A DNA stretch of 64,000 bases from Actinomycetota bacterium. Its GTDB lineage: Bacteria > Actinomycetota > Aquicultoria > Aquicultorales > Aquicultoraceae. The position numbers and the translations under genes are program-made. Below the pieces are notes generated by a model. The model was given only the letters and a program-made list of their open reading frames with translations, ran no database searches and was not told where the DNA came from. The DNA lies in NCBI GenBank assembly GCA_018333515.1, contig JAGXSZ010000036.1, forward strand, positions 1-64,000, read 5' to 3'. Each line of letters begins with the position of its first letter. Position 1 is the stretch's first letter. Below are positions 585 to 9,268 of this stretch, piece by piece.

Positions 585-1181
585 ATGTTACCAGATTTTC
601 CTCAAGCAAAAAACGAGCTCATGCAGGTACTGACGGAGCGCATGAAACTAATTCAATCAGGGTTTATGCAGCCCTTCGGAGAGTTACCGAAGTTTGTCAT
701 GCATGAGGGAGATAGTTTCAGGATTATTCGAGCCGATGGTTCTATTGATGAAGTCCCAATGAAGGAAGCTAAGGTAAAAATTACTATTGAGCACTCAGAA
801 GTTGAAACCATGACGCCTGCAGAAATCATTCAAAGAGTGGATTCGATGGCCGAAGAGATGGCAAGGCAGCAATCACAAATCTTTTTCAAGAAAATCAACG
901 AGACAACAGCTGCGGTTGGTAATACCATCGATGTGGGTGGAGGAGAGCTTACCGTCGATGATTATTTAGATATGCTATCGAAAGTTCAATTCAATTTTGA
1001 TGAAAATGGAGAGCCTAAGCTACCCGTAGCTGTTACAGGCGAAAAGCTCCATGAGGCTATGGTTAAAATACAAGAACAGCTTAGAACCGATGCAGCCGCA
1101 AAAGCCCGTTTCGATGAAATCATTCGGCAAGAAAAGGAAGAGTGGCGTGTTAGAGAGAGTAATCGAAAATTGGTTGGATAG
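585..1181 (+). CDS. Unknown protein, first gene of a two-gene cassette
   Basis: A 198-residue protein I do not recognise. The start ATG 585 is chosen over ATG 537 because GAGG sits 6-7 bases before it. The protein is soluble and acidic, has no signal peptide or membrane segment, and its last ~45 residues (HEAMVKIQEQLRTDAAAKARFDEII) look helical and possibly coiled coil. A central segment has NETTAAVGNTIDVGGGELTVDDY. It overlaps the following nuclease-like gene by 35 bases, so the two are probably translated together and act together. Base composition is AT-richer than the housekeeping genes further on, in keeping with acquired DNA between a group II intron and an IS relic. Confidence 0.75.
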   Translation: MLPDFPQAKNELMQVLTERMKLIQSGFMQPFGELPKFVMHEGDSFRIIRADGSIDEVPMKEAKVKITIEHSEVETMTPAEIIQRVDSMAEEMARQQSQIFFKKINETTAAVGNTIDVGGGELTVDDYLDMLSKVQFNFDENGEPKLPVAVTGEKLHEAMVKIQEQLRTDAAAKARFDEIIRQEKEEWRVRESNRKLVG

Positions 1182-2781
1182 GGCGAGCGAAAAGTCCTTC
1201 CAGATTCCATTTTCTCATATGCTTATCAACGAAGGGTACAAAATAATACACGTATCGCGACATTGCGGTATGGAACTTGGGAAAGACATCATAGCTATCG
1301 ATGCAGACGGAACACCATGCGCTTTTCAGCTTAAAGGTGCAAAGAATGGTAAAATCTCTCTCTCACAGTGGCGAGAGGATAGTATTAGCGCACAATTGCA
1401 GGATTTGGTTATGACGGCTATCGACCACCCCTCGGTTGATGCCACTAAGCCCCACCGCTCATTTTTTGTTACGAACGGTAATCTTGAAGAAGAGGTAAGC
1501 CGAGCCATAAGCGATATGAACCGAACTTGGGAGAGGCAAGGTCAACCTTACGGCATAGAAACGATTGTTCGAGGAGAGTTCCTTGAAATGGCGCTTAACC
1601 TAGGAACCAATCTTCTCCCATCGGGCTTACCAGATACTACGCTTGAGCAAAGATTCCTCCAACTCTTTCAAGAAATGGGCAACGACGTTCTACCTAAGGA
1701 AAAACTCACTGCGCTCATAGAATCAGTCTTACCATTCGGTTACGTGAAAACGAACGATAGAAGCAGGAAGCCGTCGAAAGCGGCATGTAGTAGGGCAATA
1801 TCGGGCGCTGCTGTTCTATGCTCAATCAGCACTTCCAGTTTTGATGAGAAGAATAACCACGTGGCGGTCATAGAAGCATGGGTCATATTCTTATCTTATA
1901 CACTGGCGCTGGCAGAGAGATGGGACCTAGACCCAAAATATTGGAAAAATGAATTTGAAATGGCTAAACAAGCAATTTATAACAAGCTCGAAGACCTCTA
2001 TGACGAAGTCAAGGAAGCGCCTTACCTGACAGAAGGGAACGCATTGGCTGACCCGCCGTTCTACCGTGTAAGATTAACATGGTTAGTGGCCTATATGAGC
2101 ATCCTTGGCCTCTGGAGGCGTTTCGAGAACAAAAGAGCAGATGAAACCGATGTCTTTATCAAGGAATTCTGCTTAGAGAATCGTCGCAAACTTTATATGT
2201 GGGGTGAAGCTGCTGCACCCCAGTTCCTTGCGGCGATGTGGTATCAAAAAAAAGTTATCTCGACGCCTGAGCCAGACTTTTTGCTTAAGGCTCTTATCGA
2301 GGTAATTTGTCATGTCAACAAACCGAAAGGGGAGGAGCTATTAGCGAATCCGTATTATGATGCGAACAGTGTTATGCCCCACCTTTTGGGGATAGCGGAA
2401 AAGCCATTGGATGAAAGATTTCGCGGTAACTCATATGTCTTAGAAGGTCTAGTTCACCTCTTCGTGAGACGCAATTTTAAGCAACATACTTGGCCGCTTT
2501 GGCCTGATGTTACTAGGATCTCGGTTACAACATTTAAACCGAAGAAATTATGGCATCTATATAAATGGAATAACCGAGAAGGAGTTCTTGAGATAGCCTA
2601 TCCAAAGCATACCCAGGATTGGAGTGAGCTACGAACAATGGCTCAAGAATCTGGTGGCGCTTATGTTCCTAAACTTATTAAGACCGAACCAGTTCTGTTC
2701 CTACTATTCTTATGTGTTTATCCCCATCGAATGAATGCATCTATTATGCGATGGTTGGATTCAGAGCTAATGAGAATCTAA
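1147..2781 (+). CDS. Restriction-endonuclease-like (PD-(D/E)XK) protein with large helical C-terminal region
   Basis: 544 residues from GTG 1147, which has AAGGAAG 4-10 bases upstream; an ATG at 1051 in the same frame would overlap the previous gene far more. The first ~140 residues have a Mrr-like PD-(D/E)XK pattern: EGYKIIHV, then GMELGKDIIAIDADG, then FQLKG. That gives the metal-binding Asp (GKDI) and the QxK variant of the ExK motif. The remaining ~400 residues are helix-rich without a motif I can name, with LTWLVAYMSILGLWRR and a hydrophobic end (PVLFLLFLCVYPH). Families with this fold usually cut DNA; the target and the partner's role are inference. The gene pair resembles the layout of phage-defence cassettes. 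Confidence 0.7.
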   Translation: MLERVIENWLDRASEKSFQIPFSHMLINEGYKIIHVSRHCGMELGKDIIAIDADGTPCAFQLKGAKNGKISLSQWREDSISAQLQDLVMTAIDHPSVDATKPHRSFFVTNGNLEEEVSRAISDMNRTWERQGQPYGIETIVRGEFLEMALNLGTNLLPSGLPDTTLEQRFLQLFQEMGNDVLPKEKLTALIESVLPFGYVKTNDRSRKPSKAACSRAISGAAVLCSISTSSFDEKNNHVAVIEAWVIFLSYTLALAERWDLDPKYWKNEFEMAKQAIYNKLEDLYDEVKEAPYLTEGNALADPPFYRVRLTWLVAYMSILGLWRRFENKRADETDVFIKEFCLENRRKLYMWGEAAAPQFLAAMWYQKKVISTPEPDFLLKALIEVICHVNKPKGEELLANPYYDANSVMPHLLGIAEKPLDERFRGNSYVLEGLVHLFVRRNFKQHTWPLWPDVTRISVTTFKPKKLWHLYKWNNREGVLEIAYPKHTQDWSELRTMAQESGGAYVPKLIKTEPVLFLLFLCVYPHRMNASIMRWLDSELMRI

Positions 2782-2822
2782 AGGTTCATTTTTTGATAAG
2801 GTTCAATGATAAAAATGAACCT
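2782..2822. repeat. 12-bp perfect inverted repeat after the nuclease gene
   Basis: AGGTTCATTTTT (2782-2793) and AAAAATGAACCT (2811-2822) are perfect inverted copies around a 17-base loop, beginning directly after the stop codon of the nuclease gene and ending at the stop of the IS relic on the other strand. It may terminate transcription from both sides, although no T-run follows the second arm. Confidence 0.55.
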
Positions 2823-3175
2823 CACCCAAAAACTGGTCCATTTAAAACTAGAGAAAATTTAGTTTCTGGCGTTTCCTTACAGTCGTAATTCGCCGCATAT
2901 TCAGCGGGAGTCATGTTGCCGAGCGAGCTGTGCGGCGTAAAATTATTGCACTCAATTCTCCAGGCCGCGATCTTGGCCCGAGCGTCCTCTATGGAGAGGA
3001 ACTTGTTCGTATTTAAGCACTCATCTCCGAATCGTTCGACAACGCTTTCAAGCTTGTCATCGCCGGTTAAAAATTGACCCCCTGGTCTGAGAACCGTAAG
3101 ATTTCTGCTGTGAGATATGATTGACCCTCGCGATAATGGCTCGGCCAACCACATGCATATCTCTTTGACGTACAA
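2822..3175 (-). pseudogene. IS3-family transposase remnant (OrfB C-terminus)
   Basis: Read on the minus strand the peptide contains [18 protein letters not shown], then [16 protein letters not shown] and [10 protein letters not shown], the C-terminal end of the IS3-type (rve) transposase domain, including the final part of the catalytic region. Only about 85 residues are recognisable; the reading frame upstream ([21 protein letters not shown]) is not transposase-like, so the DDE core and OrfA are missing. The outer end (ACCCAAAAACTGGTCC, 2824-2839) resembles the terminal inverted repeat of such elements. It is therefore a dead relic next to the nuclease cassette. Confidence 0.8.
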
Positions 3176-3914: not shown

Positions 3915-5054
3915 ATGAAGGTGTTGGTAATATACGATTCGCTTTATGGCAACACGGAGCAAATAGTCCGAGCGATTGGCGCTGCTTGCGGCTCCGGCGA
4001 GGATGTCGCGGTGCTTCGCGTGGGCGATGTGAAACCTCAGCAACTGGCGGGATTGGATATGCTAGTCGTTGGTTCGCCTACGCAGGGATTCAGGCCGACC
4101 CCTGCAATCAAAAACTTGATAGACAGCGTCCCGGTGAGCGGCTTAAAAGGGGTCAAGGTGGCCGCGTTCGACACCAGGATGTCACCAGATGATTTCGATT
4201 CTACATTAGGGCGCACAGCGGGGCGCTTTTTTATGGGGACATTCGGTTATGCCGCTAAGCCTGTCGCGGAAGGGCTCGAGAAAAAGGCTGGAGAGCTGGC
4301 GGTTCCTCCTGAAGGGTTCTTTGTCGAGGGCAAGGAAGGGCCGCTGAGAGAAGGCGAACTCGAACGAGCTGCAGATTGGGCAAGGCAGCTCATGGGGGGC
4401 ACAACTGTGAAATTATTCTTCAAAAAAGGTTATATGATCGCTGCTCTCACAATAGTGGTTGCGGTAGCCTTTGCAGTAAATTTCTCGGTACTTGGAAATA
4501 ACCAAAACAATGATAAAGCCAATATCAAACCAGCTAGTAGTGAAACCGCGCCTCTAAATATCGGAGTATCGGGGTATGAGGTGCCATATACGGTTGAACA
4601 AGCTACCAAAAGCGCTAAAGATATTGCAATTGGCACTGTAGTCGACGTACAGCCAAGCGTTTGGAACACAAAAGACGGCAAAAGACCGGCGGGTTTGCAG
4701 CCGGATGATCCAAACTTGTTCCGCCCGGATAAAGACGGCAATATAGTCATGATTTACACGCCGGTTGTCGTCGAGGTAAAGAAAAAACTCAAAGGCTGTG
4801 ACAGCAATCGGATTGTCATCAAGATTTTGGGTGGAACAGTGGGCGACGACAAAGTCGTTCAAGCCGAGCAGGAAGCGCTTAGCCTCGGTGATGAGGTCGC
4901 GCTGTTTACCGATTATACGTTCACGGAAGCAAATGGAGATACGCTCGATGTGCCTCTACTCGTGAAAAAAGCCAAGGATGGGCAAGTAAAGTGGGGGCTT
5001 GAGAAGATAGCCCTCGATGACCTCGAGAAAAAGGTAACGGCTTTAAAGCAGTAG
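3915..5054 (+). CDS. Flavodoxin domain fused to a membrane-anchored extracytoplasmic domain
   Basis: 379 residues. Residues 1-160 are a flavodoxin: MKVLVIYDSLYGNTEQIV holds the FMN-phosphate loop, and the domain ends with ELERAADWARQLMG, where free flavodoxins of this type normally stop. In the same frame follows VKLFFKKGYMIAALTIVVAV, a transmembrane segment (about 172-194) with positive charges before it, then about 185 residues with no cysteine pairs or known motif, predicted outside the membrane. GTG at 4407 with GGGG upstream could be an independent start for the second part. This looks like two genes joined by loss of a stop codon, or a real fusion; the flavodoxin would remain cytoplasmic. 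Confidence 0.75.
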   Translation: MKVLVIYDSLYGNTEQIVRAIGAACGSGEDVAVLRVGDVKPQQLAGLDMLVVGSPTQGFRPTPAIKNLIDSVPVSGLKGVKVAAFDTRMSPDDFDSTLGRTAGRFFMGTFGYAAKPVAEGLEKKAGELAVPPEGFFVEGKEGPLREGELERAADWARQLMGGTTVKLFFKKGYMIAALTIVVAVAFAVNFSVLGNNQNNDKANIKPASSETAPLNIGVSGYEVPYTVEQATKSAKDIAIGTVVDVQPSVWNTKDGKRPAGLQPDDPNLFRPDKDGNIVMIYTPVVVEVKKKLKGCDSNRIVIKILGGTVGDDKVVQAEQEALSLGDEVALFTDYTFTEANGDTLDVPLLVKKAKDGQVKWGLEKIALDDLEKKVTALKQ

Positions 5055-5202: not shown

Positions 5203-5427
5203 ATGCTGGTAAACTGGCGAGACCATATTGTAAGCACCGCTGATGTACTTCACGGTAAGCCGCGCATCAAAGGCATGCGCATTCCCGTAAGTCTTATTCT
5301 CGGATACCTGGCTTCAGGTATGTCGGCCGGAGAGATAATCGAGGAGTTTCCAGACCTTACTAAAGAGCATATAGCCGTTTGTCTGGATTATGCCCGGGAT
5401 TTATCAGATTTCGAGGCTGCGGTGTAA
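5203..5427 (+). CDS. DUF433 antitoxin-like protein
   Basis: 74 residues from ATG 5203, with a strong AAAGGAGG 5-12 bases upstream. The sequence carries the DUF433 pattern: VNWRDHIVSTADVLHGKPRI, KGMRIPVSLILGYLASGMS, IIEEFPDLTKEHI and CLDYARD. This is a VapB-like winged-helix family that normally binds DNA and neutralises a DUF5615 PIN-type RNase encoded just downstream. Here the stop codon overlaps the ATG of that toxin (TAATG), but the toxin is truncated, leaving an orphan antitoxin. Confidence 0.85.
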   Translation: MLVNWRDHIVSTADVLHGKPRIKGMRIPVSLILGYLASGMSAGEIIEEFPDLTKEHIAVCLDYARDLSDFEAAV

Positions 5428-6566: not shown

Positions 6567-6584
6567 AGAAAAGAGGTGAATAGA

Positions 6585-7652
6585 ATGGGAGCCTTATTTT
6601 CCTTGGCTGTAGTTTTGTTACTTAGCTTGGTCGCCTATGTTGGGGTCGAGTTTGTCGGCATGCAGTCTTTCTTCGGAATCGTTATACCTTATGTTGCCGT
6701 TCTAACAATCATCGTTGGAGTTGTCTATCGCGTAGTAACGTGGGGAAAGTCGCCCGTACCCTTTGCTATCTCGACATCCTGCGGTCAGCAAAAATCTCTG
6801 CCGTGGATAAACCAGAGCAAACTCGACAACCCCTCCACCACCAGCGGTGTAATCGGCAGAATGGCGCTCGAGATACTTCTTTTCCGTTCGCTGTTTAGAA
6901 ACAACACCAGCGAATTGAGAGAAGGGCGGCTTGCCTATAGTTCCGGCAAGTGGCTGTGGTTGGCGGCGTTAGCGTTTCACTGGACGTTCTTGATTGTTCT
7001 AATTCGACACATGAGGTTTTTCGCGGAGCCCTCTCCCGTATATGTGAGCGCATTAGAGAGCCTCGATGGTTTTATGCAAATCGGCGCTCCAAGGCTATAT
7101 ATGACAGGTGCGATATTGTTGGTGGCGGTGGGCTACCTCCTATACCGGAGGCTTGCTGTACGCACAGTCCGCTATATCTCACTTGCAGCCGATTATTTTC
7201 CGCTCTTTTTGATAATATCGATTGCTACCACCGGTATCCTCATGAGGTATTTCTTCAAGGTGGATATTGTGAGCGTAAAAGAGCTGACAATGGGCTTGAT
7301 TGGCTTCAGCCCCGTCATCCCGGAGGGAATCGGCGTTATCTTCTATATCCACGTATTTCTTGTCAGCACCCTCTTTGTTTACTTCCCATTTAGCAAACTG
7401 GTCCATGCGGGCGGCGTGTTCCTCAGCCCAACAAGAAATCTGGCAAACGATAGCCGCATGAAAAGACATATCAACCCATGGAATTATCCCGTCAAGCTCC
7501 ATCCATACGAAGAGTATGAGGATGATTTCAGGGAGAAGATGGAGAACGCTGGAATACCAGTCGAAATCCCCTCAGCAAAAGCGCCCGCGGAGGCTGAGAG
7601 CGAATCCGGCAATGAAAAGAACGACGCTGAGATACCAGTGGGAGAGGAGTGA
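6585..7652 (+). CDS. dsrM: DsrM, membrane b-type cytochrome of the DsrMKJOP complex
   Basis: 355 residues from ATG 6585 (AGAGGTG 6 bases upstream); an earlier GTG 6576 overlaps that site. Two hydrophobic helices at the N-terminus are followed by a NarI-like cytochrome b region with several membrane spans (LWLAALAFHWTFLIVLIRHM, YISLAADYFPLFLIISIATT, IFYIHVFLVSTLFVYFPFSK) and His residues suited to heme b ligation. An acidic tail follows (EEYEDDFREKMENAG). DsrM takes part in menaquinol/menaquinone exchange and passes electrons with DsrK. It overlaps or abuts dsrK within two bases. Confidence 0.9.
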   Translation: MGALFSLAVVLLLSLVAYVGVEFVGMQSFFGIVIPYVAVLTIIVGVVYRVVTWGKSPVPFAISTSCGQQKSLPWINQSKLDNPSTTSGVIGRMALEILLFRSLFRNNTSELREGRLAYSSGKWLWLAALAFHWTFLIVLIRHMRFFAEPSPVYVSALESLDGFMQIGAPRLYMTGAILLVAVGYLLYRRLAVRTVRYISLAADYFPLFLIISIATTGILMRYFFKVDIVSVKELTMGLIGFSPVIPEGIGVIFYIHVFLVSTLFVYFPFSKLVHAGGVFLSPTRNLANDSRMKRHINPWNYPVKLHPYEEYEDDFREKMENAGIPVEIPSAKAPAEAESESGNEKNDAEIPVGEE

Positions 7653-7654
7653 TC

Positions 7655-9268
7655 ATGGCAAAGAAGAAACCAGAAGAGCTGTCAAAGATAAATTACAGCC
7701 TTCCCTATACGGGTTGGATGTATAACCCGGTTGAATTCCAAGACGGAATGTTTTGCAACGCGAGCAAGCCCGAAAGCCTCAATACCGTCGATTTCCCGAA
7801 TGCTCGGAAGTGGTCGGTAAAAGACGAGGACTGGAGCCTGCCCGAGAACTGGAAAGAGATAGTCCTAGAAGCCATGGAAGACAGGCTTAAGAAGTATCGT
7901 TCCTTCCGGCTTTTCATGGATATCTGTGTAAGATGCGGTGCATGCGCCGATAAGTGTCATTTCTTTCTCGGCACGGGAGACCCCAAGAATATGCCTGTTC
8001 TCAGGGCAGAGCTTATAAGGTCGGTCTACAGGAGATATTTCACCACATCCGGCAAGATGATGGGGAAACACGGAGGCGGCAGAGAGCTTACCTTAGATGT
8101 CCTCAAAGAGTGGTGGTATTATTTCTACCAATGCTCGGAATGCCGTCGCTGTTCGGTCTTTTGCCCGTACGGCATCGACCAGGCCGAGATTACAATGATA
8201 GGCAGGGAGATACTCAATCTTCTCGGCCTAAACATAGAGTGGATTGCGGGTCCCGTGGCAAACTGCTTTATGAAGGGTAACCACCTAGGTCTCGAGCCGC
8301 ACACGATAAAAAGCAACTTTGACTTCATGATAGACGACATAGAGGAGATAACGGGCGTCAAGGTTGACCCGAGCTTCAACCGCAAAGGTGCCGAAGTTCT
8401 CTTCGTTGCGCCATCCGGCGACATGTTCGGCGACCCCGGCACATATACGTGCATGGGTTACATGATGCTCTTCCATGAGATTGGCCTTGACTATACTTGG
8501 AGCACCTACGCGTCCGAAGGTGGAAACTTCGGTTTCTTTACCTCGAACGAGATGGCCAAGCGGCTCAACTCCAAGATTTACGCCGAGGCCCAAAGGTTGG
8601 GCGTAAAATGGATAATCGGCGGCGAATGCGGCCACATGTGGAGGGTCATGCATCAGTACATGGACACCTGGAACGGGCCCGCTGATTTTCTCGAGGTTCC
8701 GGTTTCGCCCATAACAGGCACCAAGTTTGAAAATGCCGGTTCCACAAAGATGATTCATATCGCTGAATTTACCGCCGACTTGATAAAGCACGGCAAGTTA
8801 AATCTTGACCCGTCCCGTAACGACCATCTAAAAGTAACCTTCCATGACTCCTGCAACACCTCGCGGGGCATGGGCATATTAGATGAGCCGAGATATGTCA
8901 TCAGGAATGTCTGCAACAATTTCTATGAGATGCCTGAGGACACCATCCGGGAGAAGACCTTCTGCTGCGGCAGCGGCTCCGGCCTCAATGCGTCGGAGAA
9001 CATGGAATTGAGATTGAGAGGCGGTTTCCCAAGAGCGAATGCGGTAAAGCATGTCCGGCAGCATCACGGCGTCAATATGCTGGCTAACATGTGCGCCATT
9101 GACAGGGCGGCCTTGCCGCCGTTGATGAATTATTGGGTTCCCGGCGTGGACGTGGCAGGTATGCACGAACTCGTGGCTAACGCCCTAGTGATGAAGGGAG
9201 AAAAGGAAAGGACGCAAGACATGCGCCTTGAAGATCTTCCCGAGAAAGAGGGTGCTGAAGATGTATAA
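7655..9268 (+). CDS. dsrK: DsrK, cytoplasmic HdrD-like iron-sulfur subunit
   Basis: 537 residues; ATG 7655 is preferred over GTG 7649 because GGAGAGGAG lies 5 bases before it. Two [4Fe-4S] motifs are visible at C91/C94/C97/C101 (CVRCGACADKC) and C160/C163/C166/C170 (CSECRRCSVFC). Two CCG-type regions follow: GGECGHMW, and HDSCNTSRG with CCGSGSG, the non-cubane cluster site of HdrB/HdrD proteins. In the family DsrK reduces the DsrC trisulfide or an equivalent disulfide with electrons from DsrM. The gene overlaps dsrJ by 8 bases. Confidence 0.92.
   Translation: MAKKKPEELSKINYSLPYTGWMYNPVEFQDGMFCNASKPESLNTVDFPNARKWSVKDEDWSLPENWKEIVLEAMEDRLKKYRSFRLFMDICVRCGACADKCHFFLGTGDPKNMPVLRAELIRSVYRRYFTTSGKMMGKHGGGRELTLDVLKEWWYYFYQCSECRRCSVFCPYGIDQAEITMIGREILNLLGLNIEWIAGPVANCFMKGNHLGLEPHTIKSNFDFMIDDIEEITGVKVDPSFNRKGAEVLFVAPSGDMFGDPGTYTCMGYMMLFHEIGLDYTWSTYASEGGNFGFFTSNEMAKRLNSKIYAEAQRLGVKWIIGGECGHMWRVMHQYMDTWNGPADFLEVPVSPITGTKFENAGSTKMIHIAEFTADLIKHGKLNLDPSRNDHLKVTFHDSCNTSRGMGILDEPRYVIRNVCNNFYEMPEDTIREKTFCCGSGSGLNASENMELRLRGGFPRANAVKHVRQHHGVNMLANMCAIDRAALPPLMNYWVPGVDVAGMHELVANALVMKGEKERTQDMRLEDLPEKEGAEDV

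Follow-up and report, generated by a model that had tools for sequence, protein, structure and literature searches.

The 64,000-nt window, the whole stretch of DNA that was analyzed, carries a pair of overlapping genes, here called A and B, where contig C36 begins; the genome measures 2.33 Mb. The pair is probably a two-gene immune cassette of the abortive-infection type, in which A gates B and B combines a nuclease warhead with a helical C-terminal domain. The candidate bacterial immune systems thereby gain a gene pair that crosses phyla, has apparently not been named and has a link to Olokun.

Gene A (585-1181, plus strand) is an open reading frame (ORF) with an ATG start and encodes a helical protein of 198 aa whose family has no name. 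The start at 585 is favored over one at 537, since the nearest relatives begin with MLPNW.. (L032) and MMMLPSF.. (L050). Gene B (1147-2781, plus strand) has a GTG start and encodes 544 aa, with a predicted PD-(D/E)XK (Mrr-like) nuclease domain followed by a helical C-terminal region. The original prediction of two overlapping genes is confirmed; over 35 nt (1147-1181, plus strand) the last codons of A overlap the first codons of B, and both reading frames are open in the window. A Shine-Dalgarno-like AAAAGGAAGAG is located directly 5' of the GTG of B, and translational coupling of A and B via the overlap is likely. A perfect 12-nt inverted repeat (2782-2822; arms AGGTTCATTTTT/AAAAATGAACCT) directly follows the stop codon of B and is a possible transcript end of the cassette. 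Promoter and terminator scans returned matches at chance level only.

The pair was also described as AT-rich and as lying between a group II intron and an IS3 relic, and both descriptions hold. The GC content of A-B is 44.2%, compared to 53.0% for the whole window, and when the rest of the window is cut into segments of 2,197 nt (mean 53.4%, sd 3.2), only 0.8% of them are as low. The 3' end of a group II intron (domain V/VI) is located upstream of the cassette at 172-228 on the plus strand and scores 49.9 bits against a cut-off of 40 (Rfam RF00029). An ORF at about 2822-3061 on the minus strand is a probable remnant of the C-terminus of an IS3-type transposase. It was recognized by a short pairwise similarity of 42% across 26 aa (E 1e-4), and there is no second copy of the relic in the genome. 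B was not found in any of the 147 other genomes searched as relatives of the window genome, so the cassette looks acquired. Its AT-richness and the adjoining mobile elements fit a cassette that looks patchy in distribution and horizontally acquired. Further downstream on the plus strand are an ORF that presumably has a flavodoxin-like domain and a membrane-anchored second domain (3915-5054), a lone ORF that is taken to resemble DUF433 antitoxin-type proteins and has no obvious toxin partner (5203-5427), and genes assumed to be like the DsrM/DsrK (Hdr-type) components of a membrane redox complex (6576-9268).

Relatives of the pair are widely spread. A tblastn search of plasmids returned one relative, on the Rhodococcus qingshengii plasmid pdjl-6-4, which has both genes, again with an overlap of 35 nt. 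A two-sequence profile found another in G267, an Actinomycetes metagenome-assembled genome from the phylum of the window genome. The resulting three-sequence profile was scanned against the contigs of about 85,000 genomes and found 24 relatives, which span seven phyla or more (Actinomycetota, Acidobacteriota, Bacillota, Chloroflexota, Bacteroidota and Ignavibacteria, Desulfobacterota, and Alphaproteobacteria). The closest relative of the window B is alphaproteobacterial (L032, 30% identity). A second alphaproteobacterial locus (G1345/L050) looks, by eye, to belong to the same subfamily as these two. Viral contigs were scanned with profiles and yielded no relatives; therefore, the pair is not typically phage-borne.

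A is directly upstream of B in all 24 genome loci, on the Rhodococcus plasmid and in G1345/L050. Intact pairs overlap by 32-50 nt, a length that is 2 mod 3 in every case and so keeps B in one fixed frame relative to A. Since the relatives keep the gene order, the frame and the overlap, the pattern is well beyond chance. The distances among A proteins follow those among B proteins (Mantel r = 0.85, p = 0.0001, 20 loci), which shows coevolution of the two genes. A is single-copy in nearly all of these genomes; the extra matches, in one genome each, are a second fragment of a split A and a marginal match (6.9e-4). Profile searches for A without B covered 1,125 genomes: 250 from the class of L015, 350 from the phylum of L019, 392 from the phylum of the window genome and 133 from the class of L032. 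Beyond the genomes on which the searches were centered, A matched three (G267, G460 and G1345) and was followed by B in each, with a truncated B in G460. No orphan A was found among the 1,125 genomes. The conserved co-occurrence proposed as a check on the original prediction is seen, as A adjoins B in every B-bearing locus. No A stood alone in the material searched, so the refuting condition, homologues of A that are never next to the nuclease, does not overturn the prediction.

Some copies are damaged. A is disrupted by a frameshift in L010, L012 and L018, in all of which B stays open, and B has a frameshift in L016 and a truncation in L030. These could be cases of true breakage or of sequencing error. 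The L018 copy (L018:9408-10032), with its frameshifted A and open B, comes from Paenibacillus baekrokdamisoli, whose genome is complete.

A small upstream partner that is translated first and overlaps the next gene is the classic toxin-antitoxin layout, and the copies broken in one gene (A in three, B in two) could be read the same way. In that case A would serve only to neutralize the toxicity of the nuclease (or of the caspase), and the pair would maintain itself or its mobile element without sensing phage. This is unlikely. B is large and has a 370-aa helical domain probably in common with the defense protein OloB, whereas the toxins of such modules are usually small. Copies are also located in defense islands. 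In addition, an open B next to a disrupted A is barred for a strict antitoxin; sequencing error may account for these cases, but L018 is a complete genome.

The nuclease signature of B (1270-1335, plus strand) reads E43-L-G-K-D47 ... Q61-L-K63. The Mrr-like motifs named in the original prediction, GKDI (residues 45-48) and QLK (residues 61-63), are both present, and D47 and the lysine at the QxK site occur in 23 of the 23 sequences in the B family alignment. Residues E15, E43, G45, K46, D47, I49, A50, Q83, H94 and P95 are invariant in this alignment, and the Q of QxK is replaced only in L029. The Pfam family Mrr_cat (PF04471) is matched by 11 of the 23 members (E up to 0.01), and the Rhodococcus relative passes the curated cut-off (22.8 vs 21 bits). 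The Pfam search gave no Mrr_cat match for the window B itself. The AF2 model of B (pLDDT 75.6, pTM 0.71) has an N-terminal alpha/beta domain with a helix-strand core, followed by helices. A Foldseek search of the PDB with this model returned nothing below E 0.001. The better matches, individually non-significant, include EndoMS (5gke, prob 0.96, E 0.2), chain E of an RNA polymerase II complex and many TPR-type helical repeats. EndoMS is a PD-(D/E)XK nuclease, and chain E is presumably RPB5, which is assumed to have an N-terminal domain of nuclease-like fold. The family matches, the motifs and the EndoMS match support the prediction that B is nuclease-like, which suggests that it may cut DNA.

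Gene A encodes a protein that is mostly helical in its AF2 model (pLDDT 77, pTM 0.48). Its C-terminal tail is basic, is conserved in the family and is encoded within the overlap. The window A matches the profile of its own family (21 aligned sequences) with an E of 3.1e-58. Neither the window A nor the window B passes a curated cut-off of any Pfam or NCBIfam family, and searches of both against Pfam, NCBIfam, PHROGs, PADLOC and the PDB gave no usable direct match. A fold search of the PDB with the model of A returned only noise. A PHROG match of A to 'major head protein' (E 0.0033) was dropped, as it came without any phage-structural evidence. The PADLOC candidate PDC-M53A weakly matches residues 55-139 of the window A (E 5.9e-4), and this identity was also dropped. 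Within the A family the likeness is confined to the window A, and the model also matches 3 of 14 control genomes (E up to 1). The match is probably due to chance. The proposed role of A is that of a sensor/adaptor or an inhibitor of the effector B.

The resemblance of B to Mrr_cat and the conserved basic tail of A would also suit a type IV-like restriction system, in which B is an Mrr-type nuclease acting on modified or foreign DNA and A is its DNA-binding specificity subunit. However, family look-ups and the fold search recognized no DNA-binding domain in A, and homologues of A also partner caspase-like proteases, where a DNA-specificity subunit makes less sense. It is quite improbable that the pair is a restriction system of this kind.

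The caspase-type partners were found through A. A search with a Bacteroidetes A protein returned MT835554.1, in which an A homologue (profile E 3.3e-26) is followed, with a 4-nt overlap, by a 636-aa caspase-like protein. A search with the A of MT835554.1 then returned the Sulfitobacter pontiacus plasmid CP144550.1, which has a like arrangement. In both loci (L044:2863-5390 and L047:7986-10513) the A homologue has a 4-nt overlap with a caspase-like protein that has a long C-terminal half, and both records are unannotated there. A His motif (FAGHG) and a Cys motif (IIDAC) are retained in both caspase-like proteins, and the caspase (peptidase C14-like) label is given by these motifs. Compared with the profile of the A family, the two caspase-linked A homologues match with a probability of 99.4 (E 2.6e-21). 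The sequences thus indicate an exchange of effectors, nuclease or caspase, behind A. The caspase variant is known from two loci only, one of which is in an unannotated record labeled as phage.

The C-terminal helical domain of B (1645-2781, plus strand; approximately residues 167-544) may connect these effectors. In hhalign profile comparison it scores 41.2 against the C-terminal halves of the caspase-like proteins (24.5 and 37.0 for the single sequences) and 45.6 against an OloB-like set. The best of 93 decoys scores 21.8, the reversed OloB-like set 13.9 and the reversed caspase set 20.6. Direct profile comparison of the OloB-like proteins with the caspase C-termini found no match, and it is therefore only by way of B that the three are linked. 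A relationship among the C-terminal halves of B, OloB and the caspase-like proteins is probable. The original prediction described some 400 residues of B as unfamiliar. The window B has no family match, but B has some likeness to known systems: its relatives weakly match OloB, though with another partner gene. The pair may tentatively be assigned to an undescribed modular immune family. The constant units of this family would be the small protein A and a helical effector domain, the warhead would be either an Mrr-like nuclease or a caspase-like protease, and Olokun would be a cousin with a different partner. If true, a single sensing unit could trigger either DNA cutting or proteolysis. The nuclease and the caspase behind A would then be a natural swap that separates sensing from killing.

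Known defense genes are clearly present in the neighborhood of three loci out of about 22, a raw count uncorrected for background. In a Bacteroidetes locus (L028), a type III methyltransferase (2.4e-197) and a type III restriction enzyme (1e-188) are located upstream of A, along with an ORF that reads as TIR-like. A Bacillus locus (L017) has Drt3a of DRT3 (1.3e-73) just downstream. A Rhodococcus locus (L003) has a HamB-like (Hachiman-like) helicase downstream (3.8e-55) and a GajA-like fragment upstream. Most other loci have no clear, placeable defense neighbor; the neighbor in L032 reads as uvrB. The original prediction of an anti-phage system is upheld as regards a conserved pair with a nuclease-like B. 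The anti-phage function itself is suggested purely by neighborhood and homology.

The immune cassette might work as follows. A would be made first from a message common to A and B, and B would be translationally coupled to it. This coupling would probably supply the two proteins in a fixed ratio, and they may bind each other. A and the helical half of B would restrain the nuclease and sense infection. Upon infection the nuclease would be released and would cut DNA of the phage or the host. The outcome may be phage exclusion or cell death.

Olokun has already been named, as a system of E. coli and Pseudomonas (PMC10121019, PMC12629846). No mechanism for it was found in the open literature consulted. 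PADLOC OloB is weakly matched by 14 of the 23 B family members (best 1.1e-12). This and the C-terminal profile score, more than any decoy reached, would suit a divergent form of Olokun. However, the window B has no match to PADLOC OloB, no A family member matches OloA in PADLOC, and the A family alignment compared to an OloA-like alignment gives an E of 0.12. A search for the OloB family over 294 Bacteroidia genomes gave four Olokun-like loci (L035-L038), which have OloA-like and OloB-like genes and no A homologue. A divergent Olokun is very unlikely, and the A-B cassette is not classed as Olokun since that system requires OloA. Two of the Olokun-like loci have an extra ORF of 239 or 228 aa between the OloA-like and OloB-like genes (L035:593-1312 and L036:622-1308). 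This ORF has a GKD...IIKxG nuclease-like motif and resembles the N-terminal domain of B (prob 51, E 1.5e-4).

The A-B cassette resembles three kinds of known proteins in part. B has the N-terminal E-x-G-K-D...Q-x-K core in common with the Mrr and type IV restriction nucleases, but differs from them by its large fused helical domain and its obligate pairing with A. Like B, the caspase-effector proteins in L044 and L047 follow an A partner and end in a probably related C-terminal half, but they differ by their caspase-like protease warhead and the 4-nt overlap. The relatives of B are like OloB of Olokun (PDLC03925/PDLC03926) in having a nuclease-like N-terminus and a helical C-terminal half, but the cassette differs from Olokun in its 198-aa partner A, which is unrelated to OloA by profile.
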